The notes under the pieces are model-generated. The model saw only the letters and a list, made by a program, of their open reading frames with translations. It was not told the origin of the DNA and did no database searches. Below, piece by piece: positions 1,453-19,344 of a DNA stretch of 20,472 nt. The stretch is from a virus. Position numbers and translations under genes: made by a program. How positions within the stretch are numbered: the stretch's first letter is position 1; the number at the start of each line of letters is the position of its first letter. The stretch spans positions 1-20,472 of the IMG/VR virus record IMGVR_UViG_3300025669_000235. One strand, 5' to 3'.

Positions 1453-2305
1453 ATATCCGATATATATTATTTCAAAAGGTCAGTGGGAAAGCAGATTGAC
1501 AAGCAAAGCTCTTGAAATAATAAAAGTGCCTTATTATATTGTTATTGAACCTCAGGAATATGATCAATATGCTTCAGTGATAGACTCTAAAAAGATTCTT
1601 ACTTTGCCTTTTAGTAATCTTGGTCGGGGTTCAATCCCGGCTCGTAATTGGGTGTGGGAGCATTCTATTTCTGTGGGAGCTAAAAGACATTGGATATTGG
1701 ATGATAATATAAGTTATTTTTACAGATTTAATAATAATATAAAAATAAAGGTTTCTTCAGGCACAATATTTAGATGTGCTGAGGACTTTGTTACTCGGTA
1801 TCGTAATGTAGCATTAGCTGGTTTCCAATATGATTATTTTGTTATTGCTAAAAGGGGTTCCATTCTTCCTGCTTATTTTTTAAACACTCGAATATATTCA
1901 TGTACTTTAATTAAAAATAATATCCCTCATAGGTGGAGAGGTAAGTATAATGAAGATACTGATTTAAGTATAAGGGTTTTGAAAGATGGATGGTGTACTA
2001 TTTTGTTTTATGCTTTTCTTCAGTACAAAAGCAGGACTGGGGAAAAAATGAAAGGGGGTAATACAGATAATGTGTATATTGACGGTGATAATCGTTTGAA
2101 GTTTGCTCAGTCTTTGCAAAAACAGCATCCTGATGTTGTAAGAGTTGTAAAAAAGTTTGGCCGTAATCATCATTCTGTTGATTATAGGCCTTTTAAAAAT
2201 AATAGGTTGATTAAGAAAAAAGATTTAATTATTCCAAATAAAATTAATAATTATGGAATGAGATTAGTTGAAGTTCAAGAAAGAGGTTTATATGATCGCG
2301 GATAA
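1442..2305 (+). CDS. TET-associated-type glycosyltransferase (GT-A-like)
   Basis: This 287-aa protein matches, by motif memory, the phage glycosyltransferases called TET-associated (TAGT/GREB1-like). Those are thought to sugar-modify hydroxymethylated pyrimidines in phage DNA. Visible features are an N-terminal YIISKGQWESRLTS segment, FSNLGRGSIPARNW around residues 57-70, ILDDN at 85-89 in the place of the GT-A metal-binding DxD, KYNEDTDLSIRVLKDGW in the middle, and MKGGNTD towards the C-terminus. ATG 1442 is preferred over ATG 1436 because AAAGG lies about 7 nt upstream of it. No TET/JBP oxygenase or hydroxymethyl-pyrimidine synthesis gene is in the window, so the acceptor base is unknown. 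The DNA is AT-rich (12 G/C in the line 2221-2280), unlike recA, which suggests acquisition. Confidence 0.72.
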   Translation: MNPKYPIYIISKGQWESRLTSKALEIIKVPYYIVIEPQEYDQYASVIDSKKILTLPFSNLGRGSIPARNWVWEHSISVGAKRHWILDDNISYFYRFNNNIKIKVSSGTIFRCAEDFVTRYRNVALAGFQYDYFVIAKRGSILPAYFLNTRIYSCTLIKNNIPHRWRGKYNEDTDLSIRVLKDGWCTILFYAFLQYKSRTGEKMKGGNTDNVYIDGDNRLKFAQSLQKQHPDVVRVVKKFGRNHHSVDYRPFKNNRLIKKKDLIIPNKINNYGMRLVEVQERGLYDRG

Positions 2306-3005
2306 AAAATTATTAGTTTTGTCAAAACTAATTCCAAAAGACAGAATACGTCCTGCTTTAAATTATATTCATATTAAAGGTAATAAGGCGGAAGTAACTG
2401 ATGGTCATATTATGGTACAATGTAATTTTCCTAAGGGAGAAGAGTGCTTTCCGGTAGGCACACCGGGAGAATCTGATGAAACTGCTGATATACTTGTTAC
2501 AAAGGAGCAAGTTGAAAGTGCTTTTAGAAATATATCTAAAAAATCTATTTTACCAGTTTTACAAAATGTAAGGGTTTCGGTAGATAAAGAAAAAAATGAA
2601 AGCATAGTTTCGCATACAGATTTAAAAAATGTTGTTAGTTTTAGAGAAAAAATAGTGGATACGTATCCTGATACAGAACAAGTAATTCCTGAATATGATG
2701 ATTCTGACGTGAAAACAGTTTCTATGGGATTATCCATGCTTAAAAAACTTGTTTATCTTATGAAAAACGCTGATTCAGATAACCCAAGAATTATAATACA
2801 ATTTGAAAACCCTAAATCAGCATTCAAATTCGTGATTCAAGATGGTTTGTATAAAGGAAAGGAGGGTTTTAATTTTATTATTCCAAAAGACTCTCACGGG
2901 GTAGTTTTTAAAGGAGTGATAATGCCTTTGAAGCCGAATAATAGTGGGGAAATAAACAAGATAATGAAAGAACCCTATACAATGGATGAGGGAGGCAAAC
3001 CTTGA
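2292..3005 (+). CDS. sliding-clamp-like protein (DNA polymerase III beta-like), short
   Basis: This 237-aa protein resembles bacterial beta clamps, which encircle DNA and tether polymerases. The resemblance is in the order and type of segments: LIPKDRIRPALNYIHIKG followed by EVTDGHIMV (compare the clamp's RPVLxGVxx...ATDGHRL), then a middle FREKIVDTYPDTEQVIPE (compare GxFPDYxRVIP), and a closing strand IIIQFENPKSAFKFVI. It is about two thirds the length of a cellular beta clamp (about 366 aa), so it may have two rather than three domains per chain. The start is ATG 2292 with AAGAGG upstream, overlapping the glycosyltransferase end by 14 nt. The 8 codons before it in the same frame have no good ribosome site. 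It belongs with the adjacent RuvC-like and Rad50 genes as replication functions. Confidence 0.58.
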   Translation: MIADKKLLVLSKLIPKDRIRPALNYIHIKGNKAEVTDGHIMVQCNFPKGEECFPVGTPGESDETADILVTKEQVESAFRNISKKSILPVLQNVRVSVDKEKNESIVSHTDLKNVVSFREKIVDTYPDTEQVIPEYDDSDVKTVSMGLSMLKKLVYLMKNADSDNPRIIIQFENPKSAFKFVIQDGLYKGKEGFNFIIPKDSHGVVFKGVIMPLKPNNSGEINKIMKEPYTMDEGGKP

Positions 3006-3697
3006 TAGTTTGCGGACTTGACTTATCTATGAATCATTATGCACTTGTTATGAAGCATATCGAGTCAAAGAAAACAAGGGTGATAGTGGCGTGGAATGTA
3101 GCCAGCCGGGTTCATGAATGGCATGATAAAATACCAAGCAATTATCGGTTGCGGTTTGTAGCCAAGACTCCTCCTGAAAAAGAGATGTTTCATTATTATG
3201 TGAATGGTCAATCTATTATAGAAGATATCAGGGATTTTCAGAAAGAGAAGGATTTTGCAGGCCGGGTGTTAGTGGCCTTGGAGGGTTATGCCTATTCATC
3301 GTCACCTGTGGGTTTGGCCCGGATAGTAGAAATGACGGCTTTGGTAAAAGAGGTATTATATTTTAATGGGCATGCTATAAGGCTTCATGATCCATTATCG
3401 GTTAAGATGTGGGCTGGGGATGCTCATGCTGATAAGGATTATATGGTTGATGCTTGTTTGAAAAAATATAAGATACCGGATTGCTTATTACAGACAAAAA
3501 CAAATCCGGGACAAGACGTTGCTGATGCTTACTTCCTTATGAAAATGATGGAGGCCGAATATAGGGTGAGGATGGATCCAATGCGTCAGAAAAAGTATAA
3601 GGATAAACAGCGTCAAGTATTTAATCGAGTGACAAAGGCATATCCAGAGAATTTGCTTTGTAGGCCTTTCCTTGTTTCTATGCAACCGGAGATTTGA
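3002..3697 (+). CDS. RuvC/RNase H-fold Holliday-junction resolvase-like nuclease
   Basis: This 231-aa protein has the layout of a RuvC-type resolvase, a two-metal nuclease that cleaves four-way junctions made during recombination and before packaging. The acidic residues appear at the expected places: Asp7 in VCGLDLS on the first strand, Glu94 in VLVALEGYAY, and Asp172/Asp175 in the C-terminal DVADAYFLM helix (compare RuvC's DxxD). A Lys/His-rich segment HADKDYMVD lies just before. TTG 3002 is the start: GAGGGAGG lies 5-6 nt upstream and TTGA overlaps the previous stop. The downstream gene again overlaps. A transposase or Cas-type RuvC is unlikely given length and neighbours. Confidence 0.72.
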   Translation: MIVCGLDLSMNHYALVMKHIESKKTRVIVAWNVASRVHEWHDKIPSNYRLRFVAKTPPEKEMFHYYVNGQSIIEDIRDFQKEKDFAGRVLVALEGYAYSSSPVGLARIVEMTALVKEVLYFNGHAIRLHDPLSVKMWAGDAHADKDYMVDACLKKYKIPDCLLQTKTNPGQDVADAYFLMKMMEAEYRVRMDPMRQKKYKDKQRQVFNRVTKAYPENLLCRPFLVSMQPEI

Positions 3698-3699
3698 TA

Positions 3700-4608
3700 A
3701 TGGAAATTGGAATTTTAAAGCAACGTCAATCATTACCGCTTGAGGCTAAGATATTGATGTCTGAGAAACGAATAAGAGAATGGTATAATTATTATAATGG
3801 GAATGTATATATATCATTTTCTGGGGGTAAAGATTCGACGGTGTTACTTAACTTGGTTAGAAATATATACCCAGATGTTGTTGCTGTGTTCTGTGATACT
3901 GGGCTTGAATATCCCGAAATACGTGATTTTGTAAAGAGTATAGATAATGTTGTGTGGCTTAAACCAAAAATGAATTTTAAAAAGGTTATTGAAAAATACG
4001 GTTATCCTGTCGTGTCTAAAGAAAATAGCCAAAAAATATACGAGTGGAGGACAACAAAATCAGAGAAGCATAAGTATAAGCTTATGTATGGTAGTGGTAA
4101 TAAATATAAGTCTGGGAGATTGCCTTTTAAATGGAGGTTCCTCATTGACGCACCTTTTAAAATAGGGTATCAATGTTGTAGTGTAATGAAAAAAAATCCG
4201 TTTAAGCAATTTGAGCGCCAGAGTGGGTTAAAAGCCTTTATAGGCACCATGGCATCTGACAGTCATTTGAGGCGACAGCAATACTTGCGTACTGGTTGTA
4301 ATTCTTATACTGGTAGAGAACAAAGCAAGCCTTTGTCTTTTTGGTTGACGAGTGATATATGGGAGTATATAAAAATAAATAAGTTATCTTATTCAAATGT
4401 TTATGATATGGGTTATGTTAATACGGGTTGTATGTTTTGTATGTTTGGGCTTCATTTAGAGGGTGTGAAGAATCGTTTTACTTTAATGAGAAAAACTCAT
4501 CCTAAACAGTATAAGTTTTGCATGGAAACATTGGGGTGTAGAAAAGTAATAGATTATACTTTTCCAAACTTAAAAGAAAATTTATATTTTGATTTTGAGG
4601 GCAATTAA
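3700..4608 (+). CDS. PP-loop, APS/PAPS-reductase/DndC-like enzyme with a [4Fe-4S] cysteine pattern
   Basis: This 302-aa protein is a PP-loop ATP pyrophosphatase-fold enzyme of the sulfonucleotide-reductase/DndC superfamily. The PP motif SGGKDS is at residues 41-46, followed by VFCDTGLEYPE. A Cys-Cys pair (YQCC) and a later CMFC are separated by 83 residues. This CC-X(~80)-CxxC pattern ligates the [4Fe-4S] cluster of APS reductases, and DndC-type enzymes also carry a cluster. The C-terminal ECG(I/L)H motif that carries the catalytic Cys of true reductases is absent. I therefore infer sulfur or other adenylation chemistry on nucleic acid rather than sulfate assimilation. ATG 3700 is favoured (CCGGAG 7 nt upstream) over TTG 3694. 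It sits between nuclease and ATPase genes and abuts the next ATG without a gap. Confidence 0.75.
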   Translation: MEIGILKQRQSLPLEAKILMSEKRIREWYNYYNGNVYISFSGGKDSTVLLNLVRNIYPDVVAVFCDTGLEYPEIRDFVKSIDNVVWLKPKMNFKKVIEKYGYPVVSKENSQKIYEWRTTKSEKHKYKLMYGSGNKYKSGRLPFKWRFLIDAPFKIGYQCCSVMKKNPFKQFERQSGLKAFIGTMASDSHLRRQQYLRTGCNSYTGREQSKPLSFWLTSDIWEYIKINKLSYSNVYDMGYVNTGCMFCMFGLHLEGVKNRFTLMRKTHPKQYKFCMETLGCRKVIDYTFPNLKENLYFDFEGN

Positions 4609-5571
4609 ATGATTAAATTCTTAAAAATAGAGAACTTCCAAAGTCATAAGAATACTTCCCTCAGGTTTGATCCCGGCTTCAATGTGATTGTAGGGAGGAG
4701 CGATGGGGGCAAGTCTGCTATTCTTAGAGCATTGGAATGGGTACGAACCAACAGGCCACCCGGTATTGAGTTTATTCGTAAGGGTGAAACAGATGTAAGG
4801 GTTCAATTGAATATTGGTAATTTTAAAATCATTAGAAAGCGCACGGATAAAAAGACTGGGACATATCAGGTTAAGAATCAAAAGGCATCTGAAATATATT
4901 CCTCATTTGGTTCAGGAGTTCCGGACGATGTTACTAATGCTTTTGGGATGGGTGATATTAATTTTCAATTTCAGTTAGACAAGCATTTCCTTCTCCTCGA
5001 TACTCCGGGAGCGGTGGCTGGAGTATTGAATAACATTACTAAGTTGGGTAATATAACCGAGGCTTTGACTTGGTTGCGTAAGAGTCGAGTAGAGGAAATG
5101 AAGAACCTTGAAGGGATGGTAAAAGAATCTGCTGATTTGGAATATCCTATTAGTGAAGAAGTAGAGAAGATGCTGAATGATGCTACGAGGAAGTCATCCA
5201 AGCTTTTTGTCCTTGAGAATGAAAGGGACTCTATTACAGAACGGTATTCTGATGTCAAGTTTATATTGGCTAAAGTATCCCGGCTCCCGAAGAAAAAGGA
5301 TATTGCTGATTATCCGAATATTATGAGTGATATGTTGGGCTTGGAAGGGAATGTAAAGCGTTTGGCTGATCTTCAATCTAAGCAGGATGAGGTTTTTGCT
5401 ATTTTAAGCAAACTTGATTTACATAAGACAATGAGAATTGAACTCATAGAGGAAAAGAAAGAGATTGAAGTTGAGGGAAAGGCTATATTGAGTAGGTTGA
5501 AGGATTGTCCGTATTGTGGTAGTGTTTTAAATTTGGATACAAAAGGGAGGTTGGTGAAGGATGAAGAGTAA
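4609..5571 (+). CDS. Rad50/SbcC-like ATPase, N-terminal half with zinc-hook CxxC
   Basis: This 320-aa protein has the N-terminal half of an SMC/Rad50-type ATPase. The first strand is FLKIENFQSHKNTSLRFDPG, Walker A is GRSDGGKS (residues 29-36), then comes a Q-loop region and ADLE/K-rich coiled coil from about 140 onward. Near the C-terminus is DCPYCGS (Cys300, Cys303), the zinc-hook motif at the tip of Rad50 coils. The chain stops 17 residues after the hook. It lacks the ABC signature and Walker B, which appear in the separate gene at 7885-8487. With SbcD/Mre11, Rad50 complexes process DNA ends in recombination and genome degradation. ATG 4609 follows the previous TAA directly, with GAGGG upstream. 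This is not a random truncation: no remnant of the missing half follows, and the break is at the natural apex of the coil. Confidence 0.85.
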   Translation: MIKFLKIENFQSHKNTSLRFDPGFNVIVGRSDGGKSAILRALEWVRTNRPPGIEFIRKGETDVRVQLNIGNFKIIRKRTDKKTGTYQVKNQKASEIYSSFGSGVPDDVTNAFGMGDINFQFQLDKHFLLLDTPGAVAGVLNNITKLGNITEALTWLRKSRVEEMKNLEGMVKESADLEYPISEEVEKMLNDATRKSSKLFVLENERDSITERYSDVKFILAKVSRLPKKKDIADYPNIMSDMLGLEGNVKRLADLQSKQDEVFAILSKLDLHKTMRIELIEEKKEIEVEGKAILSRLKDCPYCGSVLNLDTKGRLVKDEE

Positions 5572-5776
5572 TGAGCAACAATGGGTAGAAAGGAGAAGGC
5601 AGGCAATAGCATTAAGCACCGTTTGTGTAGGTACGGCTTTTTTGGTAATGGGAGCGGTTCCATGGTTTACGGGATGGCCTGTATGGTTGAAGCTTTCTTC
5701 TCTCGGAGTTTGGTTTGTGTTTGTAGGGGCTTTGATATATTCTCCATACGCTCCGAAGAAAGGGAGAACACCGTGA
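5561..5776 (+). CDS. small two-span membrane protein, 71 aa
   Basis: This 71-aa protein has two hydrophobic segments (about residues 15-35 and 40-62) separated by a short Trp/Pro-rich turn, WFTGWPVW, so it probably forms an inner-membrane hairpin. ATG 5561 is preceded by GGGAGG and GAAGG and overlaps the Rad50 N-half stop by 11 nt. Its stop overlaps a GTG that starts the next small gene. No family is recognised. Position inside the recombination block suggests a stray accessory gene, with no visible link to DNA repair. Confidence 0.7.
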   Translation: MKSNEQQWVERRRQAIALSTVCVGTAFLVMGAVPWFTGWPVWLKLSSLGVWFVFVGALIYSPYAPKKGRTP

Positions 5777-5937
5777 ATATATTTAAAGCACTATGGATTT
5801 ATTTAATTCCGGGATTTAAATGTAATGCAAATACTTGGGTGGATGTTTGTGTTTCTTTAGAACGATGGCCTTGGTTTCATAATATTTGTAGGTGGGTGCG
5901 TGGGAAACTTGTACAATTGTATAAAAGGAGGCAATAA
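5773..5937 (+). CDS. small Trp-rich basic protein, 54 aa, GTG start
   Basis: A 54-aa frame begins at GTG 5773, overlapping the previous stop (GTGA) with GGGAG 8 nt upstream. It runs to TAA 5935-5937, just before the SbcD start. It is aromatic and basic: IFKALWIYLIPGFKC near the N-terminus, WPWFHNICRWVRGK near the C-terminus, ending KRRQ. This pattern could bind a membrane surface or nucleic acid, but I recognise no family. The same frame is open back to ATG 5581, but that part lies inside the preceding gene and has no ribosome site of its own. The GTG start is therefore the supported one. Confidence 0.55.
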   Translation: MNIFKALWIYLIPGFKCNANTWVDVCVSLERWPWFHNICRWVRGKLVQLYKRRQ

Positions 5938-5938
5938 T

Positions 5939-6859
5939 TTGCGCATCTTACTGCTATCTGATACTCATTATAGATCGACATCCCCGGTAGGGAGGATTGA
6001 TGATTTCAGGAAAGCCCAAAGGAATAAATGGAGACGTGTAAGAAAAGCTGCGGAGGAAAATGCAGTTGATTATGTTCTTCAGGCCGGGGATTTATGGAAT
6101 ATGCCAAACCCTCCTATTGAATTGATAAAGGAATTTCTGGTGGTAGCTAATTTTGGGACTCCTTTATTAACTATTTTAGGTCAGCATGACATGTATATGC
6201 GTTCTCTTTCCCTCGATAATACAGCGAATGGGTTATTACAACACCTCGGTATAGTGAAAATATTGTCGGAAACAGGCTTTTACGAACAAAGCACCTTTAT
6301 AGCTGGAGTATCTTATGGGGGTGACTTAGAAAAGGCCAGAGATGCGCTCAGAGCGTCAAAAGCTTCTTATAAGATTTTGGTGATACATGCGATGATCGGG
6401 GACAAACCATTATACCCCGGTCATGACATAACGAAAGCATCAGGGTTTTTGAAGAAAGTAAAAGAGGCTGATTTGATTCTTACGGGTGATTATCATTATC
6501 CGTATTATCATGAACATGAGGGAAGAGTTATATTGAATACGGGTTGCTTAATGAGGATGACTCGTGATGATAGGGATATGAACAGAAGGCCTCATTATTA
6601 TATTTTGAATACGATTACAAGAAAACTAAAAAAGAAGTTTATTAAAGCGGAAAGTCCAGAGAAGGTATTTGAGCCGAAGACAGAGCAAACATCTCTCCGG
6701 ATAGATACCTTTGAAATGATAGAGCAGTTGAAGAAGTCTCACAAAGTGGGTTTATCTTTTACAGAGAACTTGGAAGCCTATTATGAGAAATTTACGTCAA
6801 CCAAACCAGTAAAGAGTTTGGTGAGAAAAGCTCTTTCTATGGGAGGATATAAACCATAG
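5939..6859 (+). CDS. SbcD/Mre11-like metallophosphoesterase nuclease
   Basis: This 306-aa protein is the nuclease partner of the split Rad50. Calcineurin-type metal ligands appear in order: LLSDTHY (Asp8, His10), QAGDLW, a GQHDMY segment where SbcD/Mre11 normally has GNHD, VIHAMIG, and LTGDYHYP. It starts at TTG 5939, with a near-perfect AAAAGGAGG 7 nt upstream. A longer frame from ATG 5900 lies inside the preceding small gene and has no site. It lies between the two halves of its ATPase partner, so all subunits of the complex are in one transcript. The Asn-to-Gln change in the NHD motif is unusual. The family is clear; 306 aa is shorter than E. coli SbcD (about 400 aa) but normal for phage versions. 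Confidence 0.85.
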   Translation: MRILLLSDTHYRSTSPVGRIDDFRKAQRNKWRRVRKAAEENAVDYVLQAGDLWNMPNPPIELIKEFLVVANFGTPLLTILGQHDMYMRSLSLDNTANGLLQHLGIVKILSETGFYEQSTFIAGVSYGGDLEKARDALRASKASYKILVIHAMIGDKPLYPGHDITKASGFLKKVKEADLILTGDYHYPYYHEHEGRVILNTGCLMRMTRDDRDMNRRPHYYILNTITRKLKKKFIKAESPEKVFEPKTEQTSLRIDTFEMIEQLKKSHKVGLSFTENLEAYYEKFTSTKPVKSLVRKALSMGGYKP

Positions 6860-7606
6860 ATGTATAAATTAATGCTTGGTGATTGTTTAAATCGGATGGA
6901 TGAGATAAAAGATAAGTCTATTGACATGGTTATGGTTGATCCGCCGTATGGAACAACGGCTTGTAAATGGGATTCAATTATTTCTCTTAAACCGATGTGG
7001 GAACAGTTGAAACGAATTATAAAACCGAATGGTGCTATTGCTATGACATCAAGTCAGCCTTATACAAGTAAGTTGGTAATGAGTAATGTAAAAATGTTTA
7101 GGTATGAATGGGTGTGGAATAAGAAACTTGCTGGAAATACTATTTTAGCGAAAAAGCACCCATTAAAAATACATGAAAATATTCTTATTTTTTCGTTTGC
7201 TGGTAATATTTTTTATGCCCCAAAAATGAGACAAGGTAAATTTAGAATGAAAGGTTTTAAATCAGCATTATCAAAAATATACGGGAGTTCTAAAAGTACA
7301 GATACCAGAATATGGAATGACTTATACTACCCACAAAGTATTCTTGAAGTAACAAATGCTAATAATAGAATTGGTAGAGTTCATCCAACTCAAAAACCAG
7401 TAGCATTAATGGAATACTTGATAAAAACTTATACCAATGAAGGGGAGACGGTTCTGGACTTTTGTATGGGTTCTGGAACAACCGGAGTAGCTTGTTTGAA
7501 TTTGGATAGGGACTTCATTGGTATTGAAAAAAATAGAAAGATATATGGAACAGCGGTGAAGAGAATCAAAGAAGCGAAACAACAGAGAAAATCAAGGTTT
7601 TTTTAA
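6860..7606 (+). CDS. beta-class DNA methyltransferase (N6-adenine or N4-cytosine)
   Basis: This 248-aa protein is an amino-DNA methyltransferase. The catalytic motif DPPYGT (Asp27-Pro-Pro-Tyr30) precedes the AdoMet-binding motif LDFCMGSGTTG (around residues 199-209), and HPTQKP lies just before the latter. This order is the beta class, and DPPY is most common in N6-adenine enzymes. No restriction endonuclease is adjacent, so it is probably a solitary phage methyltransferase protecting or marking the genome. ATG 6860 follows the SbcD TAG with no gap; GGGAGG lies 13 nt upstream, rather far. Sampled lines are 25-32% GC against 35-42% in the flanking Rad50/SbcD genes, which suggests a separate insertion between the recombination subunits. 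Confidence 0.88.
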   Translation: MYKLMLGDCLNRMDEIKDKSIDMVMVDPPYGTTACKWDSIISLKPMWEQLKRIIKPNGAIAMTSSQPYTSKLVMSNVKMFRYEWVWNKKLAGNTILAKKHPLKIHENILIFSFAGNIFYAPKMRQGKFRMKGFKSALSKIYGSSKSTDTRIWNDLYYPQSILEVTNANNRIGRVHPTQKPVALMEYLIKTYTNEGETVLDFCMGSGTTGVACLNLDRDFIGIEKNRKIYGTAVKRIKEAKQQRKSRFF

Positions 7607-7615
7607 GGGGGAAAG

Positions 7616-7888
7616 ATGAATGATCTCAAACAAGCCTCGAAAGAATTGAGGGACTTCCAAAACAACCAAGAGCAATTAAAAAGGTTGGGTGTTGAAATAA
7701 ATAGAATCGAGGGGAGGAAGCAAGAACTCAATAAGCAATTAAAGGCCCACGGATTCAAAACGCCCAGAGAGGCATCGGATTGGGAGAAAACAGCCGGGGA
7801 AGAGATTGGGGAATTATCCGGAAAGATAAAGGCTGGGAATAATGATGTTGAGGAACGGATAGAAGAGTTGAAAGGGATACTGGGATGA
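7616..7888 (+). CDS. coiled-coil protein, possible middle piece of the split Rad50
   Basis: This 90-aa, highly charged, helical protein has a heptad-like pattern (LKQASKELRDFQNNQEQLKR, then INRIEGRKQELNKQLKAHG) and a second coil, EEIGELSGKIKAGNNDVEER. It has no cysteine. ATG 7616 has GGGGGAAAG upstream, and its stop overlaps the next gene's start (ATGA). It lies directly before the Rad50 C-half, in the order in which the descending coil of Rad50 would be. It may therefore supply part of that coil as a separate chain, or be an independent partner. This is inference from position and composition; no family is recognised. Confidence 0.72.
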   Translation: MNDLKQASKELRDFQNNQEQLKRLGVEINRIEGRKQELNKQLKAHGFKTPREASDWEKTAGEEIGELSGKIKAGNNDVEERIEELKGILG

Positions 7889-8487
7889 GTAGAGAACAGG
7901 ACATAATGAATCTCCGGGCTTTCTTTGAGGCCAAAGTAGATCGGTATGCCGAGTTGGATGAAGAGATTGAGAACAAAAAGGATTTGATTGCTGATTATGA
8001 GAAGGCTATTGATTGTATCACCACGGTGCTATCAGTAACTCAGGAGGGGATAATTCATTACATAGAGGGGATAATGGAATTGGCTCTCCAATATGTTCAC
8101 GGGGAGCAGTATTCAGCTCGGTTAATATATGAGATGAAAAGGAATCAGCCAGAAGTTAGAATAATGATCCTTAAAGACAGCATAGAAATGTCTCCGAAGT
8201 TCTCCTGTGGCATAGGAGTTGTCGATGTGGCTTCTTTTGCCTTACGGCTGGCGCTATGGTCTATTATCGAGCCTCGTACAGCCCCAGTTATAGTAACAGA
8301 TGAGCCTTTTCGTCATATTTCGGGGGAAGATCAGGTTATCAAGGCCGGGATGATGGTTAAGAAGTTAGCCTCAGAGTTGGGTTTACAAATAATAATAGTG
8401 AGTGGTAAGAAAGGGTTGGTTGAGCATGCTGATAGAGTTTTCGGTGTTAGCATAGAAAAAGGAGTGAGCAGTGTTAAAATACTGTGA
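7885..8487 (+). CDS. Rad50/SbcC-like ATPase, C-terminal half (signature and Walker B)
   Basis: This 200-aa protein has the C-terminal half of a Rad50-like ATPase. After a short N-terminal coil (residues 1-55) come an ABC-signature-like segment CGIGVVDVASFALRLAL (108-124), Walker B APVIVTDEP (133-141) and FRHIS in the D-loop position. No Walker A is present. The signature is degenerate: instead of SGG(E/Q) it reads CGIGVVD, a form I associate with other phage ATPases. The switch region reads IIIVSG where Rad50 usually has a His (ITH). It must pair with the 4609-5571 chain to bind ATP. ATG 7885 overlaps the previous stop by 4 nt. The end overlaps the homing endonuclease start by 17 nt. Confidence 0.82.
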   Translation: MSREQDIMNLRAFFEAKVDRYAELDEEIENKKDLIADYEKAIDCITTVLSVTQEGIIHYIEGIMELALQYVHGEQYSARLIYEMKRNQPEVRIMILKDSIEMSPKFSCGIGVVDVASFALRLALWSIIEPRTAPVIVTDEPFRHISGEDQVIKAGMMVKKLASELGLQIIIVSGKKGLVEHADRVFGVSIEKGVSSVKIL

Positions 8488-9133
8488 GTGTGGTTGCGGG
8501 GAAAAGGTAAGGAGTCGATTTGTGTCTGGTCATAATCAACGAGGAGTATTGCCTTGGAACGCTGGTAAAAAGTTATCTATATCTCATAGGATTAATATTG
8601 GTGAAGGAGGGAAAGGGGTATTTCATAATATATCAGATGTAGGGAGAGCAAAACTCAGGGAATGTGGTCGTAAAACAAGTCAGAGAGTAAGGGTTGAGCT
8701 GTCTCCTTTAAAGGGTAGAAAACTATCAGCAGAGCATAAAAGGAAAGTTAGTGAAGGAGTAAGAAAAGCTTATTTGGAAGGGAAGTATAAACCAAAAACT
8801 AATAATTCTAAATGGTACAGTAATACTTCTATTGAAAAAATTATGGAAAATGAGTTAAAAATAATTGGTTTAAATTATAAGAAACAACATCATATTATTG
8901 GTATTGGTTATGTTGATTTCTTTCTTCCTGATTTTAATATTATAATCGAATGTGATGGGGATTATTGGCACAATTTACCCGGTGCCCAAGAGAAAGATGT
9001 TAATAGGGATTTTGGATCCACCTTTTTACATAAGTATAAAACTATTCGATTTTGGGAGCATGAAATTAACGATGATACGGAAGGATGTATAAAGCGATTG
9101 AGGGAAGAAATAAAGATGCTTGATAGTCAATAA
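8471..9133 (+). CDS. free-standing homing-type endonuclease: Cys cluster + NUMOD3 repeats + Vsr/DUF559-like nuclease
   Basis: This 220-aa protein has a typical homing-endonuclease layout. The N-terminal Cys cluster CECGCGEKV (residues 5-13) is followed by RFVSGHNQRG. Two NUMOD3-type DNA-binding motifs follow, KLSISHRINIGEG (34-46) and KLSAEHKRKVSEGVRKAY (84-101). The C-terminal nuclease is of the Vsr/DUF559 fold: IGYVDFFLPDFNIIIECDGDYWH, with Asp149, Glu160 and Asp162 as likely metal ligands. It starts at GTG 8471 with AAAGGAGTG upstream. It overlaps the Rad50 C-half by 17 nt, and its TAA lies inside promoter repeat copy 1. The sequence is AT-rich. Such genes usually spread by cutting cognate alleles nearby; no intron is visible around it. 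Confidence 0.82.
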   Translation: MLKYCECGCGEKVRSRFVSGHNQRGVLPWNAGKKLSISHRINIGEGGKGVFHNISDVGRAKLRECGRKTSQRVRVELSPLKGRKLSAEHKRKVSEGVRKAYLEGKYKPKTNNSKWYSNTSIEKIMENELKIIGLNYKKQHHIIGIGYVDFFLPDFNIIIECDGDYWHNLPGAQEKDVNRDFGSTFLHKYKTIRFWEHEINDDTEGCIKRLREEIKMLDSQ

Positions 9134-9149
9134 ATGCTATAATTAAATA
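9117..9149 (+). promoter_or_regulatory. repeated extended -10 promoter, copy 1
   Basis: TGCTTGATAGTC is followed by AATAAATGCTATAAT and TTAAATA. TATAAT at 9138-9143 is preceded by TG at 9135-9136, giving an extended -10 (TGnTATAAT). No good -35 lies 16-18 nt upstream. The whole 33-nt block recurs at 11348 with one change, and more loosely at 9688. It overlaps the stop of the endonuclease gene. The conserved TGCTTGA block upstream may be an activator site. Confidence 0.7.
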
Positions 9150-9152
9150 GAA

Positions 9153-9225
9153 GGGTGACGGGATTGAGCTTCGGTATCAGAAAGTTATAATTCGGCTCCG
9201 GTGAATACATCGAATCCTGTCACTC
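9153..9225 (+). promoter_or_regulatory. structured leader RNA 1 (long-range 13-bp stem)
   Basis: Starting about 10 nt after the -10 of promoter copy 1, GGGTGACGGGATT (9153-9165) can pair with AATCCTGTCACTC (9213-9225). All 13 positions pair, two of them as G-U, enclosing 47 nt. Inside, GAGC (9166-9169) can pair with GCTC (9195-9198). The ribosome site of the 35-aa gene starts 6 nt after the stem. The 73-nt size suggests a tRNA, but the T-arm and anticodon arm do not fold. It is either a 5' leader that controls the following gene or a stable processed small RNA. Confidence 0.45.
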
Positions 9226-9245
9226 GTAATAAAGGAGATTATATC

Positions 9246-9353
9246 ATGAAGGATTTTATGGAAGGTATTACACAGGGGTGTACTGTAAGTTCAACTTTAC
9301 TTCTTTTGATTATAGTAGCACAACTAATTAAAATCATTACTTTGCTGCAATAA
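9246..9353 (+). CDS. 35-aa single-span membrane peptide
   Basis: ATG 9246 is preceded by AAAGGAG (8 nt spacer) and opens a 35-residue frame ending at TAA 9351. About 10 polar residues (MKDFMEGITQ) are followed by a long hydrophobic stretch, STLLLLIIVAQLIKIITLL, enough for one membrane span. It is the first gene behind promoter copy 1 and its structured leader, and it precedes a lipoprotein gene. Such pairs of tiny membrane and lipoproteins in phages are often exclusion or lysis-related, but nothing here proves that. The good ribosome site and clean context argue against a chance ORF. Confidence 0.55.
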   Translation: MKDFMEGITQGCTVSSTLLLLIIVAQLIKIITLLQ

Positions 9354-9384
9354 TACACTTTCGTAATGTAGAGGAGGTTTTATC

Positions 9385-9711
9385 ATGAAAGCAAAGGAAT
9401 TAGAAGATGGTTTGGGTTTATTTATTGTGGTATTCCTATTTTTTGGGATATTATGGCTGATATCTTGTTCGGGAGAAAGATCAATGCCAAGCTCCCCGGA
9501 CTCGGAACCAACTGTGACAGAAATCCTTGAGATCAGGGAGGGTTATGGTTTGGATAGTTTGCTTGTATCTATAAATGGGGTGGAGCATTGGGAAGAGATT
9601 TATGGTCCAATTCCCCCGGATGGTTATGTGCCTACTTTTCCATCTTTAACTTATGAAGAACAAAAAAAGAAATATGAGGAGGAACACCTTCATAGTCAAG
9701 AAATGCTATAA
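9385..9711 (+). CDS. putative phage lipoprotein, 108 aa
   Basis: This 108-aa protein starts at ATG 9385 with GAGGAGG upstream (9 nt spacer). The N-terminus has a charged start, a hydrophobic core (residues 10-27) and a lipobox LISC with Cys28, so signal peptidase II processing and lipid anchoring are likely. The mature part is acidic and Pro/Ser-rich (MPSSPDSEPT), then short helical segments and a charged end, KKKYEEEHLH. The last codons encode promoter repeat copy 2, so the coding sequence and promoter are read from the same bases. Phage lipoproteins commonly block superinfection at the cell surface. That role is only a suggestion here; no family is recognised. Confidence 0.7.
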   Translation: MKAKELEDGLGLFIVVFLFFGILWLISCSGERSMPSSPDSEPTVTEILEIREGYGLDSLLVSINGVEHWEEIYGPIPPDGYVPTFPSLTYEEQKKKYEEEHLHSQEML

Positions 9712-9720
9712 TTAAATAGA
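9688..9720 (+). promoter_or_regulatory. repeated extended -10 promoter, copy 2
   Basis: CTTCATAGTCAAGAAATGC precedes TATAAT at 9707-9712, with TG two bases upstream of C (TGCTATAAT), then TAAATAGAAGGGTG. From the AAATG onward it matches copy 1 for more than 20 nt, including the first bases of the leader. The upstream block differs (CTTCATAG versus CTTGATAG). The lipoprotein stop codon TAA (9709-9711) is inside the -10. Confidence 0.65.
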
Positions 9721-9721
9721 A

Positions 9722-9789
9722 GGGTGTCGCGAATCGCGTCTCATTTAGGGAGGCCCACGGGAATTGTGCCTGAACCGGATTCCGCACCC
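9722..9789 (+). promoter_or_regulatory. structured leader RNA 2 (long-range 12-bp stem, alternative local hairpin)
   Basis: GGGTGTCGCGAATC (9722-9735) can pair with GATTCCGCACCC (9778-9789): 12 pairs with bulged C at 9728 and 9730. The same bases also fit a local hairpin CGCG-AAT-CGCG (9728-9738), so the two folds exclude each other. The architecture matches leader 1 (same GGGTG start, same distance from the -10, similar length, CACYC end) although the interior differs. What follows is not an obvious gene start, so this could be a small RNA in its own right. Confidence 0.42.
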
Positions 9790-9978
9790 TTAATAAAAAT
9801 ACATTAAGTAAGATGGGAGGTGGACATGTAAGCCTTGGTTAAAACCGAGGATCAGGAGTGAAGGGGGGTAGAGGAACCGAGTATGCTTGAATAAATTATA
9901 GTATACATTGTGAAGTTGTTAAGTTTAATTCTATCTTGTTAGAACTGTTTGGGTCTTTTTTTGAAGGAAGTCAACCTG
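9790..9978 (+). other. non-coding stretch with SD plus start-stop codon and a hairpin
   Basis: No gene is supported here. A strong ribosome site (GGGAGGTGG, 9815-9823) is followed by ATG immediately followed by TAA (9826-9831), a start-stop element. A hairpin follows, CCTTGGTT (9833-9840) with AACCGAGG (9843-9850). AACCGAG recurs at 9875-9881. An AT-rich segment around 9883-9907 (TGCTTGAATAAATTATAG) resembles a shortened version of the promoter repeat. Position 9979 is the most plausible start of the next reading frame. Confidence 0.4.
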
Positions 9979-10230
9979 TTGGATAATTCGAGTTTCAGCC
10001 CCTCTCCTGATTTACTTAGTACGTTTGAAATTGCTTTTAAATTGATGCTTGATCCAATTATAGTCTCCCTTGCTTTATTTATTTTTATTTGGGCTGTAAT
10101 TGGATGTTTTTATATATGGGTATTTGAAAGGAGAAATATATGTCGATTCCTAAAGAATTTAAAGAGATACTTGATGAGGGATTACTCACGGCAAAGCTTC
10201 AAATTAATATTGCTAAGATTTTTGAATTGA
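9979..10230 (+). CDS. possible small membrane protein, TTG start
   Basis: A frame of 83 residues from TTG 9979 has GAAGGAAG 8-9 nt upstream. The same frame is open from TTG 9949, but no ribosome site precedes that. The protein has one long hydrophobic span, DPIIVSLALFIFIWAVIGCF, followed by a basic tail (VFERRNICRFLKNLKRYL). The last 91 nt overlap the next, better supported gene in another frame, which makes the basic tail doubtful. The true product may be real but weakly expressed, or the frame may be fortuitous. No family is recognised. Confidence 0.38.
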   Translation: MDNSSFSPSPDLLSTFEIAFKLMLDPIIVSLALFIFIWAVIGCFYIWVFERRNICRFLKNLKRYLMRDYSRQSFKLILLRFLN

Positions 10231-10400
10231 TTACAGGAGAATTACGGGGGGGAGGGTATCATCACCCAATCACTTGTAGCGAGGGTGGTTGCCCTAAGTG
10301 TTCAACGTTAATGGTAAGTGATTATCATGTATTACCTCCTGAAGTTAAAGATATAATAAGGTTAATGGGTTGGGGAGTTATGAAGGGGATGGAGGCCTAA
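10140..10400 (+). CDS. unknown 86-aa protein with a Cys cluster
   Basis: This 86-aa protein starts at ATG 10140 with AAAGGAG upstream (6 nt spacer). The N-terminal half is an amphipathic helix (EFKEILDEGLLTAKLQINIA). The middle holds TCSEGGCPKC (Cys46, Cys51, Cys54), with His41/His42 just before, a possible zinc site. The C-terminus is LPPEVKDIIRLMGWGVM. It overlaps the next gene by TAATG, so the pair is translationally coupled. No family is recognised. Confidence 0.65.
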   Translation: MSIPKEFKEILDEGLLTAKLQINIAKIFELITGELRGGGYHHPITCSEGGCPKCSTLMVSDYHVLPPEVKDIIRLMGWGVMKGMEA

Positions 10401-10783
10401 TGCCTTTTGATCATGATGGGATATGGAAGAAAATTCGGGAGGTATATACCAAGCCCCGTGACGCAGTACGAATTAAGGAAATGGAAGAGCTTTGCCGGGA
10501 TGTAGATTATTTAATATCGGAGATACAGCACGTAGAGAAGAGGATGGGTGTTACCGCACTTATCCCGGTGATGTTGAGGGATTTATGTATACAGCTGAGA
10601 TATTATGAGGAGAGACGGCATTACAAATCTGACTTGGAATTTTATGATAAGTTAGCAGAAGAGTTCAAGATGGATCCAGTACGTGTTAGAAAGATAGTAT
10701 ATGACACTCAGGTATTAGATACATGGTGGTTAACAGAAGAGGAGGGAGGCCATGAGCCCCAACCAGACGAAGAGGAAGAATGA
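10400..10783 (+). CDS. unknown acidic helical protein, 127 aa
   Basis: ATG 10400 overlaps the previous stop (TAATG), with GGAGG 4-5 nt upstream. A version beginning 10 codons earlier (10370) lies within the previous gene. The 127-aa product is mostly helical: EMEELCRDVDYLISEIQHVEK, then LRYYEERRHYKSDLEFYDKL, then a helix-turn-helix-like stretch LAEEFKMDPVRVRKIVYD. It ends in a very acidic tail (QPDEEEE). The HTH-like stretch could bind DNA, but that is weak. The end overlaps the next start (ATGA). Confidence 0.7.
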   Translation: MPFDHDGIWKKIREVYTKPRDAVRIKEMEELCRDVDYLISEIQHVEKRMGVTALIPVMLRDLCIQLRYYEERRHYKSDLEFYDKLAEEFKMDPVRVRKIVYDTQVLDTWWLTEEEGGHEPQPDEEEE

Positions 10784-11025
10784 TGTTTGATGAGTGGTAT
10801 CCAGATTATGTACGGCATATGAAGACAATAATGAGTGATAGTGATTTTGCTTATAATTTTGGTAATGTAATATTTGATGTTGCAGAAAAGAATACTCAAT
10901 CAAACGAACTAATTCAAGATTTTAGAGGGAGAAGGGCGCAAAGTGCTCCCCAGGTTTCATATATTGATAACGAGGAAAGAAAACATATAACCCATGTAAG
11001 AAAAGGGGATGGGGTTTTAATATGA
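10780..11025 (+). CDS. unknown 81-aa protein
   Basis: This 81-aa protein starts at ATG 10780 (a second ATG follows at 10783) behind GAGGAAG, overlapping the previous stop by 4 nt. It is hydrophilic with aromatic patches (MMFDEWYPDYVRHMK, SDFAYNFGNVIFDV) and a basic middle, DFRGRRAQSAPQ. No signal peptide, membrane span or known motif is visible. It is coupled to the next gene by an ATGA overlap. Coding is supported by tight packing and good ribosome sites rather than by family. Confidence 0.62.
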   Translation: MMFDEWYPDYVRHMKTIMSDSDFAYNFGNVIFDVAEKNTQSNELIQDFRGRRAQSAPQVSYIDNEERKHITHVRKGDGVLI

Positions 11026-11228
11026 ATAAGTATATGTGTAGGAGATGGGTCAAAAGCTTTGAGATGGAAATAACAGCTGATAATGAGGAGGAGGCAATCA
11101 TTGCTTTTGAGGCAGAGGAGAAAGCACAGGAGATGCCTCAGTCACAGGGAAGTCATGTATCAGTCGATAGGATAACGAGAGCAGAAGAAAGTCTGTCAGA
11201 CGAGCAATACAAAGGGGAAGGGGATTAA
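11022..11228 (+). CDS. unknown small acidic protein, 68 aa
   Basis: This 68-aa protein starts at ATG 11022, overlapping the previous stop (ATGA), with AAGGGGATGGGG upstream. The N-terminus MNKYMCRRWVKSFEMEITADNEEEAIIAFEAEEKA has the pattern of small phage domains with a strand followed by an acidic helix. The second half is hydrophilic and acidic, ending KGEGD. After its TAA the same frame stays open for 41 codons (see the next entry), so the stop may be recent or may be read through. No function is assigned. Confidence 0.62.
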   Translation: MNKYMCRRWVKSFEMEITADNEEEAIIAFEAEEKAQEMPQSQGSHVSVDRITRAEESLSDEQYKGEGD

Positions 11229-11354
11229 CATGAAGAAAATGAGCAAGAAAGGGAGATAACGAGGCAGCAAGAAGAGATAGAAATTAAAGATGAGCAAATA
11301 AAAGAAATGGCTGAAATAATAGTAAAGTTAAAAGCTGAAGCATTAACTGCTTGA
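11229..11354 (+). pseudogene. broken small coiled-coil ORF (likely frameshifted)
   Basis: After the TAA at 11226-11228 the same frame encodes 41 sense codons rich in Glu, Gln and Lys (segments EREITRQQEEIEIKDEQ and EMAEIIVKLKAEALTA), ending at TGA 11352, but it has no usable start. A good start, ATG 11230 with AAGGGGAAGGGG upstream, lies one base out of frame and stops after 9 codons at GGGAGATAA. A one-base gain near 11250 would join them into a ~42-aa protein (MKKMSKK...EITRQQEE). This pattern suggests a frameshift mutation, a sequencing indel, or -1 ribosomal frameshifting. The stop lies inside promoter copy 3. Confidence 0.4.
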
Positions 11355-11380
11355 TAGTCAATAAATGTTATAATTAAATA
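11348..11380 (+). promoter_or_regulatory. repeated extended -10 promoter, copy 3
   Basis: TGCTTGATAGTCAATAAATG is followed by TTATAATTAAATA. TATAAT is at 11369-11374, preceded by TGT (extended -10). It is identical to copy 1 over 33 nt except one C-to-T change. It drives a short leader (11381-11429) carrying a small hairpin CCTTT-TATCG-AAAGG directly before the ribosome site of the 173-aa gene. The large stem of the other two leaders is absent. Confidence 0.7.
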
Positions 11381-11429
11381 AGGGAGCAATTAAACCAAAA
11401 CAAATTCCTTTTATCGAAAGGGGAGAAAG

Positions 11430-11951: not shown

Positions 11952-11984
11952 AATAAATAAAGAAGCATATAGACATGAAAATCA

Positions 11985-12019
11985 GGGGTTAGGCAACATA
12001 AACTAACCCTTATTTTATT
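11985..12019 (+). terminator. Rho-independent terminator
   Basis: GGGTTAG (11986-11992) and CTAACCC (12003-12009) form a perfect 7-bp stem, extendable by a G-U pair, with a 10-nt loop. TTATTTTATT follows. It ends the accessory block just before the packaging operon. Confidence 0.8.
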
Positions 12020-12095
12020 GATAGCCGTAGAAAGGCTATAGCTATATAATATAGTATATATTATGTTATATGTATGAAAGGGAGGAAGAGGAAAG
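12020..12095 (+). promoter_or_regulatory. AT-rich candidate promoter region for the packaging/head operon
   Basis: After the terminator, ATAGCC (12021-12026) can pair with GGCTAT (12034-12039). A very AT-rich run follows with several -10-like hexamers, the best being TATAAT at 12045-12050. A TTGATA at 12018 is too far away (21 nt) to be its -35, so late expression may need a phage activator. The ribosome site of the small terminase gene (GGGAGGAAGAGG) follows. The promoter is inferred from position and composition. Confidence 0.4.
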
Positions 12096-15493: not shown

Positions 15494-16843
15494 ATGATTG
15501 ACTTGATTAAGAGGATAGGGGATGCTCAGGGAATCAGTGTCCCATCTTCCCCGGCTCCTAATTACTTTGGGGGAAGTGGTAGCACTGATCTAAAAAAGAG
15601 TGCTACATGGGACGTATGGAGCGGTATGGTTAATCAACTAAGTAAAGCTGATCAACCTGATAACCTAAAAGCCTTTGTTGAGACATATGCCGTATTGCCG
15701 TGGATGTATATAGGTGTATGGATCATTTCCTCCTCTATTGCTGCCAGGCCTCTTCAGATCTTCGAGGGCTTTGGGGATGATGCTGAACTCGTGGACAATG
15801 GGGATGATTATGATCTATTGAATGAGCCTAATGAAAATGAGGACGGCAATCAGATGATCGAGTCCATCGCTGCTTATCTTGAATTATCCGGTAATGCATT
15901 CTTGGAAGAGGTTGCTATCATTAATGGCCTTCCAGTTAAGCTTTATGGATTGGAACCTTATTATATGAATATTGTTCCTGACCCCAAGATTAAAATAAAA
16001 GGATACTATTGGGAGAATCAAGGAACTAAGATTGAATACGAACCGGAGAACATAACTCATTTTACATATAACAACCCTCTCAATCAGTTCTGGGGTATGG
16101 GTGTAGTTAAGCCCCTACAGACTACATTGATCACGGAGCTTTACCGAGAGATGTACAATAAAGGCTATTTTCAGAATGAGGCGAGGCCTGATGTAGTGCT
16201 CAAGCAAACTCCTGATCCAGCGAAGGGTGTCATGCCCCTCATTCCTGCTGCTCGTGAAGAACTGGCTCTCAAATGGACCAATGCTTTTGGAGGCTCCCGG
16301 AATGCTCGGAAGCCAGTGGTGTTGCCCCCAAACTTTGATATAGAGTTATTGACCGAAGCAATCCAAGACATGGCCTTCCGAGAGATGGAAAAGAGTTTAC
16401 GTGAAAGGGTATTGGGATGCTTAGGAGTGCCCCCGGCCTTAGTAGGTTTATTTGAGTTTGCTAACTATGCTAATAGCCGTGAACAGATAAAGATATTTCA
16501 TACAGTAACATTACCTCCCAAAGAAGATCGAATAGCCAAGACAATCACTCGGAGGATTCTCAGACCGTATAAAGCTGATCATTGGTGTAAGTTTGATACG
16601 TCTGATATCCCGGCTTTACGTGAAGATGGGAAAGATCAGACAGAGAGACTGTCTCAAGAATACGATAGGGGAATTATAACACTTGGTGAATTTAGAGAGC
16701 AGAGAGGATACGGGAGGACAGACGATGATGTTGTTAATGATACCCGTGTAATGATTCAGAGTCTTGTACCATTTGATGAAGCAGGTGCTTTACCCGAAGA
16801 GGGTGGAGGATTTGAGGAGCCTGAGGAGGATGTCGTTGAGTGA
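15494..16843 (+). CDS. portal protein (HK97-type)
   Basis: This 449-aa protein is the dodecameric ring at the capsid vertex through which DNA enters and leaves. The HK97-type signature pattern is visible: WMYIGVWIISSSIAARPLQI (about residues 73-92), LLNEPNENEDG, then YLELSGNAFLEEV, GLPVKLYGLEPYYMNIVPD, EPENITHFTYNNPLNQFWGMGVV, and FQNEARPDVVLKQTPD. The length is typical. ATG 15494 has ACGGAGG upstream. The acidic C-terminal tail (LPEEGGGFEEPEEDVVE) overlaps the next gene's start. Synteny with the terminase and MuF genes agrees. Confidence 0.9.
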   Translation: MIDLIKRIGDAQGISVPSSPAPNYFGGSGSTDLKKSATWDVWSGMVNQLSKADQPDNLKAFVETYAVLPWMYIGVWIISSSIAARPLQIFEGFGDDAELVDNGDDYDLLNEPNENEDGNQMIESIAAYLELSGNAFLEEVAIINGLPVKLYGLEPYYMNIVPDPKIKIKGYYWENQGTKIEYEPENITHFTYNNPLNQFWGMGVVKPLQTTLITELYREMYNKGYFQNEARPDVVLKQTPDPAKGVMPLIPAAREELALKWTNAFGGSRNARKPVVLPPNFDIELLTEAIQDMAFREMEKSLRERVLGCLGVPPALVGLFEFANYANSREQIKIFHTVTLPPKEDRIAKTITRRILRPYKADHWCKFDTSDIPALREDGKDQTERLSQEYDRGIITLGEFREQRGYGRTDDDVVNDTRVMIQSLVPFDEAGALPEEGGGFEEPEEDVVE

Positions 16844-17396
16844 GTGCCTTAAATGCGGACTATGTTGTAAGGATATATTTATTGGTGACGGGTTATTCGA
16901 TAGTGATAATCCGGTAGATAAGGATTGCGCTTTATTTATAACGAAGCATTGGGAAGTAATTAAGACTTATCCAGATGGGAGCTATTACAAATGTACGTTA
17001 TTAAACGAGGAGACAAATCAATGTACAGACTATGACCATAGGCCTTATACCTGTAGTGGCTTTCCTCTATATGGTAGGGATAAAGTCAGTGAGGCCGAAT
17101 TGAAGAAGTATCCATTATGTGGTTTAATGAAACGAGGGGAGAAAGAAATGGGCAATACAGTAAAGATCAGGCAAGGTTATATGGATGGCGAGGACTTTCT
17201 GGAGATCAATGGAGTAAAAGTCCTGACTCAAGGATATACAATTCAGGTGGAGCCGGGTGATGTTCCAATGTTAACAATGACGATACCCATCGAAATAAAT
17301 GCCGAGCTTTTAACCGCCATTGACGCCAATATCATTTCGTTAACACCCAAAGGGGAAGAAACAAAGAAAGAGTTTGAGGAGGTGGACGACACTTGA
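16830..17396 (+). CDS. YkgJ-like CxxCxxCC protein fused to a small phage domain
   Basis: This 188-aa frame begins at ATG 16830 (or TTG 16836, which has GAGGAGG at a better spacing) and overlaps the portal end. The first ~100 residues match the YkgJ-type putative zinc/iron-chelating family: CLKCGLCC (Cys6, 9, 12, 13), then YKCTLLNEETNQC (Cys55, Cys65) and DHRPYTCSGFPLY (Cys75). The remaining ~80 residues, from Met107, look like another domain of strands: FLEINGVKVLTQGYTIQVEP and LTMTIPIEIN. ATG 17148 at that junction has its own ribosome site (GAGGGGAG, 6 nt spacer), so a short second product from the same frame is likely. The metal-binding role in the head cluster is unknown. Confidence 0.7.
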   Translation: MSLSECLKCGLCCKDIFIGDGLFDSDNPVDKDCALFITKHWEVIKTYPDGSYYKCTLLNEETNQCTDYDHRPYTCSGFPLYGRDKVSEAELKKYPLCGLMKRGEKEMGNTVKIRQGYMDGEDFLEINGVKVLTQGYTIQVEPGDVPMLTMTIPIEINAELLTAIDANIISLTPKGEETKKEFEEVDDT

Positions 17397-17635
17397 AAGA
17401 ATTTATAATCAATTGGGCAATACGTATCGTGGTAGGGAAAGTGCTTCCAAAGCTTATCAGTGGAAGCATATCTGATCTTGCTATTGATCGTGCTGCGGAG
17501 AAGTATGCGGGCATTGTTACTGATACCGGGCAGAAAATAGCCGGAGTTCATTGGAATGATTTAGAGGACTCCATTCAAGAAAAGATAAACCGATTCACGA
17601 AGGCATTTAATAAGAAACTGAACTATGATGATTAA
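17393..17635 (+). CDS. unknown 80-aa protein, TTG start
   Basis: TTG 17393 overlaps the previous stop (TTGA), with GAGGAGG 10 nt upstream, opening an 80-aa frame. The N-terminal half is hydrophobic-amphipathic (FIINWAIRIVVGKVLPKLISG); the rest is helical and charged (LAIDRAAEKYAGI, DLEDSIQEKINRFTKAFNKK). It may associate with membrane or other virion proteins. It is the last gene before the hairpin at 17675, so it may end a sub-operon. No family is recognised. Confidence 0.62.
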   Translation: MKEFIINWAIRIVVGKVLPKLISGSISDLAIDRAAEKYAGIVTDTGQKIAGVHWNDLEDSIQEKINRFTKAFNKKLNYDD

Positions 17636-17674
17636 TGCAATGATTAACCCGTTTTTCCCCTTTGGTTAGACGGT

Positions 17675-17715
17675 GAGGAGGGCTGGGGGCTGTATCTTTG
17701 CTCCCCTCTCTCCTT
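17675..17715 (+). terminator. strong GC-rich stem-loop, terminator/attenuator-like
   Basis: GGAGGGCTGGGGGC (17677-17690) pairs with GCTCCCCTCTCTCC (17700-17713) at 12 of 14 positions, with a 2x2 mismatch and a 9-nt loop. An A-T and a G-U extend it outward. Only TTT follows, so termination would be partial. It sits in the 119-nt gap before the MuF gene and may tune its expression. Confidence 0.5.
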
Positions 17716-17754
17716 TAAATTGATTAGAACGTGGCGAGAACAAGAGGAGTAACA

Positions 17755-19143: not shown

Positions 19144-19344
19144 TTGAGAGAACTAAAATATAAATTTATGGTTTAAGCAACCATAGACGTACCATAGAGC
19201 AAGTATCATATTTAAGGGTATACTTATATGGTTGGAGTACCAATCTGGAGTGGGACTTGAACCCCAACGAGTTACGAGTGATAGTAATGGCACTATATAT
19301 GGTATAGCATATGTACTATTAAAATGGTAACGGAGGGAGCGAAA
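19144..19344 (+). other. 201-nt non-coding AT-rich intergenic region with hairpins
   Basis: No gene is supported on either strand. TATGGTT (19167-19173) and AACCATA (19179-19185) form a 7-bp hairpin. GGTTGG (19230-19235) and CCAATC (19240-19245) form another, and TGGG (19251-19254) can pair with CCCA (19263-19266). An extended -10-like TGGTATAGC (19300-19308) could be a promoter for the protease gene. No T-run terminator is seen. Confidence 0.45.

Follow-up and report, generated by a model that had tools for sequence, protein, structure and literature searches.

We analysed the 20,472-base IMG/VR virus record IMGVR_UViG_3300025669_000235 (the whole stretch, hereafter the window), probably a fragment of an incomplete genome, in which a 33-bp block occurs three times. 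The three copies probably constitute one phage-specific class of extended -10 promoters used by the host RNA polymerase, two of them with structured leaders, which would restart transcription after a long run of genes without gaps. A near-identical record (L028), 100% identical to positions 16456-20472, added 2.3 kb and brought the total sequence to 22.8 kb.

The window contains three copies of a 33-bp block

Motif searches of the whole window showed that the three-copy repeat reported in the first-pass annotation is real, with 3 copies against 0 expected. The sequence TAGTCAAKAAATGYTATAATTAAATA was found at 9124-9149, 9693-9718 and 11355-11380, always on the + strand. No fourth copy with up to 3 mismatches was present in the window, 100 dinucleotide shuffles gave none, and the 2.3 kb of L028 outside the window held no further copy. 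When scanned with a 33-bp weight matrix, the copies scored 47-49 and the next-best site only 4.8, less than the highest score in shuffled sequence (11.9); a gradient of weaker sites is therefore absent.

Copies 1 and 3 (9117-9149 and 11348-11380) were confirmed to differ by one base in 33. The more diverged copy 2, first placed at 9688-9720, does exist, but its correct register is 9686-9718, where it shows four differences from copy 1 (29/33 identical). The consensus of all three is CTTsATAGTCAAkAAATGyTATAATTAAATA. On their upstream side, the copies adjoin 30-base flanks that are mutually unrelated (9/30, 7/30 and 15/30 identities), and copies 1 and 2 extend their identity past the block by 8 bases (GAAGGGTG), which correspond to the 5' arm of an RNA stem. 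Shared coding was rejected as the cause of the repeat because copy 3 is non-coding in the frame that copies 1 and 2 have in common (LDSQ and LHSQEML, each followed by a stop).

Two further features described for every copy held for two of the three. A TGCTTGA element separated from the -10 by 14 bp is conserved in copies 1 and 3, but copy 2 reads ACCTTCA at this place. Overlap with the stop codon of the preceding gene is found in copy 1 (9131-9133) and copy 2 (9709-9711) but not in copy 3, whose in-frame TGA (11352-11354) closes just a frame of 15 codons, not a credible gene; the last credible open reading frame (ORF) before it stops at 11228.

The copies have the properties of extended -10 promoters

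All three copies contain an exact TGnTATAAT (TGCTATAAT in copies 1 and 2, TGTTATAAT in copy 3), a nonamer with 8 occurrences in the window where 1.6 would be expected. As first annotated, none has a -35 element; the best hexamer at a spacing of 16-18 bp matched 2/6 positions.

The window has a coding fraction of 94.6%, and from 98 to 9133 no space between genes reaches 20 nt, a gapless run of 9 kb. Gaps of at least 100 nt number six in total. One copy enters each of the first three (9134-9245, 9712-9978 and 11229-11429), and the later ones (11952-12095, 17636-17754 and 19144-19344) are devoid of the block. All three copies lie on the + (coding) strand, 5' of small accessory genes, with the terminase and head genes further downstream.

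Extended -10 promoters are by far the likeliest interpretation of these blocks as judged from their sequence, and it is well supported because the TGnTATAAT is exact, the orientation and gap placement are appropriate, and a stem lies at the expected +1, about 7 nt past the -10. A minus-strand promoter based on TTGACTA was also considered and rejected, a matching -10 being absent in copies 1 and 3.

We propose that, downstream of the 9-kb run of replication and recombination genes, the host RNA polymerase would resume transcription in each of the first three gaps, from a promoter class within which an upstream and spacer block (about -33 to -13) is conserved. GAAGGGTG would form the 5' end of the transcripts of copies 1 and 2, which would immediately fold into a three-way junction closed by a stem, whereas copy 3, a single gene and a terminator-like hairpin would make up a one-gene unit without a leader. 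Promoter activity, start sites, leader function and timing in this scheme are predictions.

Copies 1 and 2 lead into RNA leaders predicted to be structured

To see whether stems at the copies are unusually placed, we ran an anchored-stem scan of the window (20,372 positions), computing for every base the energy of a stem with its 5' arm anchored there. The stem anchored at 9153, 3 nt past the expected start of copy 1, was the strongest of all positions. Those anchored at 9720-9722, after copy 2, ranked 30-48 (top 0.3%), and positions 11381-11383, after copy 3, ranked near the bottom. At two of the three copies, therefore, the place where transcription is expected to start is also where a stem begins.

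In leader 1, GGGUGACGGGAUU (9153-9165) pairs with AAUCCUGUCACUC (9213-9225), the junction contains no unpaired bases, and ORF 9246-9353 has its ribosome-binding site directly after the structure. The stem of leader 2 is formed by AAGGGUG-CG-GAAUC and GAUUC-CG-CACCCUU, with two hairpins inside. Neither leader is followed by a U run on its 3' side, which ruled out the stems as terminators. A longer, 250-nt structured RNA at the second position was likewise rejected (z -0.29). Rfam at a relaxed threshold returned nothing relevant, and a scan for tRNA and tmRNA found none.

Bacterial mRNAs are shielded from 5'-end-dependent decay by stems that begin 2-4 nt from their 5' end. Such protection is the most likely function of leaders 1 and 2 suggested by their predicted folds; alternatively, the 5' stem may set how the first small gene is translated. 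The roughly 180 nt after leader 2 hold no credible gene. Within this stretch, a ribosome-binding site precedes a start-stop ATG-TAA (9826-9831), perhaps a minimal ORF or a gene remnant.

Copy 3 precedes a single gene and a terminator-like hairpin

The transcript of copy 3 would begin with AAGGGAG, and the next start codon lies about 49 nt further on. The hairpin that follows the only gene of this unit (Table 1) is a good candidate for a terminator according to its predicted fold; it was overlooked by a simple terminator scan because its loop is 10 nt long. Promoter 3, one gene and this hairpin are thus predicted to be a self-contained unit just 5' of the terminase genes.

Table 1 Features of the region holding the three copies
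Feature	Position	Strand	Description
Putative promoter copy 1	9117..9149	+	TGCTTGATAGTCAATAAATGCTATAATTAAATA; TATAAT 9138-9143, TGn 9135-9137; +1 at about 9149/9150, predicted from -10 spacing
Structured 5' leader 1	9150..9228	+	13-bp stem at the base of a three-way junction, two hairpins inside; fold z -3.56; stem rank 1/20,372
Predicted membrane peptide, 35 aa	9246..9353	+	First gene of promoter 1; AAAGGAG ribosome-binding site; no family match
Putative lipoprotein, 108 aa	9385..9711	+	Hydrophobic N terminus, LISC; 3' end runs through copy 2; no family, no phage homologue
Putative promoter copy 2	9686..9718	+	ACCTTCATAGTCAAGAAATGCTATAATTAAATA; TATAAT 9707-9712; overlaps stop codon 9709-9711
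Structured 5' leader 2	9719..9795	+	Interrupted 14-bp stem from 9721, three-way-junction fold; z -2.12; rank 30-48/20,372
Largely non-coding stretch	9796..9978	+	Start-stop ATG-TAA at 9826; hairpin 9833-9850
Putative promoter copy 3	11348..11380	+	TGCTTGATAGTCAATAAATGTTATAATTAAATA; TATAAT 11369-11374
Coiled-coil-like protein of unknown function, 173 aa	11430..11951	+	Sole gene between promoter 3 and terminator-like hairpin; no family match
Intrinsic-terminator-like hairpin	11984..12020	+	AGGGGTTAG/CTAACCCTT, 10-nt loop, T-rich tail; fold z -3.81; precedes terminase genes

A shorter core recurs in other phage contigs

A 19-base core of the block, ATAGTCAAnAAATGnTATAAT, was found in 18 IMG/VR contigs belonging to about 8 unrelated groups. 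The sites lie mostly just 5' of ORF starts, and several have a -35 TTGAC at 17 bp. The reversed pattern gave 0 matches and a pattern with only the upstream part reversed gave 4; the excess over this second control is modest because single groups supply several contigs. These distributions suggest that the core is recurrently used as a promoter sequence.

In one group, made up of contigs of related phages (L004, L006, L009 and L013), the core has no -35 and a small tetraloop hairpin is found at the expected start. These hairpins offer a parallel to leaders 1 and 2, though not necessarily a homologous one. They are of the GNRA type, with paired changes in the stem (TAGC-GATA-GCTA versus AGGGC-GAAA-GCCT), and a predicted peptidase gene lies 3' of them.

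Alternative explanations for the repeated block

Several observations weigh against a class of promoters read by the host RNA polymerase, two of them with structured leaders. Bases are near-invariant where sigma-70 does not read, and a plain sigma-70 promoter leaves them unexplained. Copy 3 has no 5' stem. The leader fold comprises two sequences whose mutual similarity, past the first bases that they share, is weak (81 of 2000 shuffles were equally good). No independent relative with the block was found, and L028, the sole near-identical record, covers 16456-20472 and not the promoter region. For the 3' ends of the two leaders, 20 of 2000 shuffles were equally good, and common descent of leaders 1 and 2 is possible from their sequences. 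As for the near-invariance from -33 to -1, it would reflect either recent duplication of the copies or a factor that reads the upstream block.

Such a factor is possible, if on balance unlikely: the copies could be dedicated middle or late promoters at which a phage activator (MotA/AsiA-like) or sigma factor reads positions -33 to -13, with or without host sigma-70. Conservation of the whole 33-bp block (-33 to -1) between random flanks and the absence of a -35 would fit this explanation, and TGCTT is the core of the T4 MotA box (PMC2988021). Kayvirus late promoters, also without a -35, are attributed to a phage sigma factor (PMC7698491), so that promoters of this kind can depend on a phage factor. 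However, an exact sigma-70 extended -10 requires no helper, copy 2 lacks TGCTTGA, and the spacing is 14 bp instead of 12±1. The first-pass annotation advised looking for a small activator gene; among the scanned ORFs of the window and L028 (22.8 kb of an incomplete genome), neither an activator or sigma factor nor a relative of MotA or AsiA was recognised. The suggestion of MotA-type, activator-dependent middle promoters is weak.

A different question is how the copies arose. Promoter function is compatible with the block being a mobile regulatory cassette, in which the promoter, in copies 1 and 2 together with the 5' stem arm, was copied between gaps by recombination and aided the shuffling of accessory genes, as in the promoter-early stem-loop (PeSL) elements of T4-type phages. 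The sharp edges of the block between unrelated flanks, the promoter and leader start common to copies 1 and 2, and the one-base difference between copies 1 and 3 are consistent with this origin. The neighbouring genes belong to no known family, and the stop codons of two upstream genes come from the block. Yet there are just three copies, target duplication and terminal repeats were not seen, the G+C content of the block is about that of the adjoining DNA, and no relative was found with or without the block. We consider a mobile origin unlikely. Insertion of the block as a unit with each accessory gene, as first suggested, is a conjecture: the unrelated flanks fit, but copy 3 does not have the leader of copies 1 and 2.

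Searches for relatives covered IMG/VR, GTDB genomes and phage and plasmid collections, and the promoter with its leader was present in no other genome searched. Looser versions of the motif gave 0 matches in IMG/VR, and the same block was found in none of 84,980 bacterial and archaeal genomes. A shorter pattern of promoter plus start had one match, about the chance expectation, 5' of a MerR-type gene in a Sedimentibacter metagenome-assembled genome, where the site showed neither a stem nor any other similarity. A blastn search with a 39-mer against phages and plasmids gave just weak partial matches. Relatives sought through terminase and portal were distant ones, plus L028, whose 4 kb of identity lies outside the promoter region.

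Still less probable is an independent role for the two three-way-junction RNAs (9150-9228 and 9719-9795) as small functional RNAs with their own promoters, for example as a decoy, antitoxin-like or anti-defence RNA. Their strong folds begin 2-4 nt past the expected start, and in the second unit no credible gene occupies the 260 nt that follow the promoter. On the other side, no terminator follows either RNA, RNA 1 continues into a ribosome-binding site, and neither an Rfam match nor a tRNA was found. It is improbable, too, that a dedicated phage factor reads the whole -33 to -13 block of a promoter copied as a cassette with the arm of a 5' three-way-junction RNA that protects or regulates the transcript, which would make it a movable module of promoter and RNA cap in a phage that is not of the T4 group. 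Finally, an operator is very improbable: a dyad TTGA-TAG-TCAA (-30 to -20), bound by a phage or host repressor silencing the promoters in some phase, is perfect in copies 1 and 3, and a larger dyad, TTGAC...GTCAA, occupies that place in several unrelated loci that share the core. Copy 2, however, disrupts the dyad (TTCATAGTCAA), arms as short as 4 bp are likely to arise by chance, and the left arm in the other loci is simply the -35.

Neighbouring genes and other elements of the window

The portal protein is of the Phage_portal (PF04860) type, and the genome has no recognisable T4-type character. Bacillota phages are among the closest terminase matches, a weak hint on the host only. The best terminase match in the phage collection was MW202426, whose gene layout differs.

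Within the gapless run, an SbcC/Rad50-like ATPase looks split (4609-5571, 7616-7888 and 7885-8487). Its N-terminal half ends in a CPYC zinc hook. Genes for an SbcD nuclease (5939-6859) and, next to it, a DNA methylase (6860-7606) come in between, and a coiled coil and the C-terminal half with Walker B follow. Directly 5' of promoter copy 1, the gene at 8471-9133 encodes a homing-type endonuclease with NUMOD3-like and PD-(D/E)XK (DUF559/Vsr-like) parts. The product of 1436-2305 matches beta-glucosyl-HMC-alpha-glucosyltransferase (phrog_842), and DNA base modification is possible in this phage.

Among the head genes, 17731-19143 encodes a head morphogenesis protein with a C-terminal part that is weakly acetyltransferase-like (phrog_3810, E 0.00065). 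A very stable long hairpin (17674-17717) is found in the gap between 17635 and 17755 (z -3.0), followed by TTTAAATT; it may be a terminator or a processing site.

Implications

If the proposed scheme is true, it provides ready predictions of transcription starts and leaders for a group of phages that otherwise lacks annotation. A composite of promoter and 5' stem has so far been described in T4-type phages, as the PeSL cassettes reportedly treated by Arbiol 2010 and Comeau 2014; this composite may then arise elsewhere, with a stem that acts on the new transcript instead of ending the previous one. If the copies merely form an ordinary extended -10 promoter family, this is a routine annotation result.

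Comparison with known promoter and repeat systems

Like the sigma-70 extended -10 class, the three copies have an exact TGnTATAAT, no -35 and a position in gaps on the coding strand. Unlike members of that class, they are near-invariant from about -33 to -1, and two of them enter a 5' stem directly.

In T4 middle promoters, the MotA box (a/t)3TGCTTtA is found 12±1 bp from the -10 (PMC2988021). The copies share with these a -10 without a -35 and, in two cases, the upstream TGCTT core; the TGn present here occurs in about half of T4 middle promoters. They differ in the spacing, which is 14 bp in all copies, in the ACCTTCA of copy 2 and in the conservation of the intervening DNA, and neither motA nor asiA was recognised among the scanned ORFs of this incomplete genome.

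The late promoters of Kayvirus, TGTTATATTA, have no -35 (PMC7698491). An extended -10-like core (here TGyTATAATTA), the absence of a -35 and a small number of copies are common to both systems. In the window, however, the sequence is TGyTATAATTAAATA with a conserved upstream block, and the 22.8 kb of the genome analysed contain no recognised sigma gene.

The SAS/ESAS elements of Cluster K mycobacteriophages are short repeats ahead of non-structural genes (PMC3203893). Both systems have short, well-conserved repeats 5' of some non-structural genes, some with adjoining inverted repeats. SAS elements, in contrast, lie at the translation start, have an unrelated sequence and number 11-19 copies per genome.

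PeSL elements are repeated composites of early promoter and stem-loop to which the shuffling of gene cassettes is ascribed (as cited in PMC4503421). The likeness lies in the repeated promoter with a stem-loop in gaps of the accessory region, seen here in two of three copies. The differences are that the stem is not a terminator, that the high density of PeSL elements is absent, with three copies in 22.8 kb, one of them stemless, and that the phage is not recognisably of the T4 type. Collectively, the elements described here depart only modestly from phage control signals already known.

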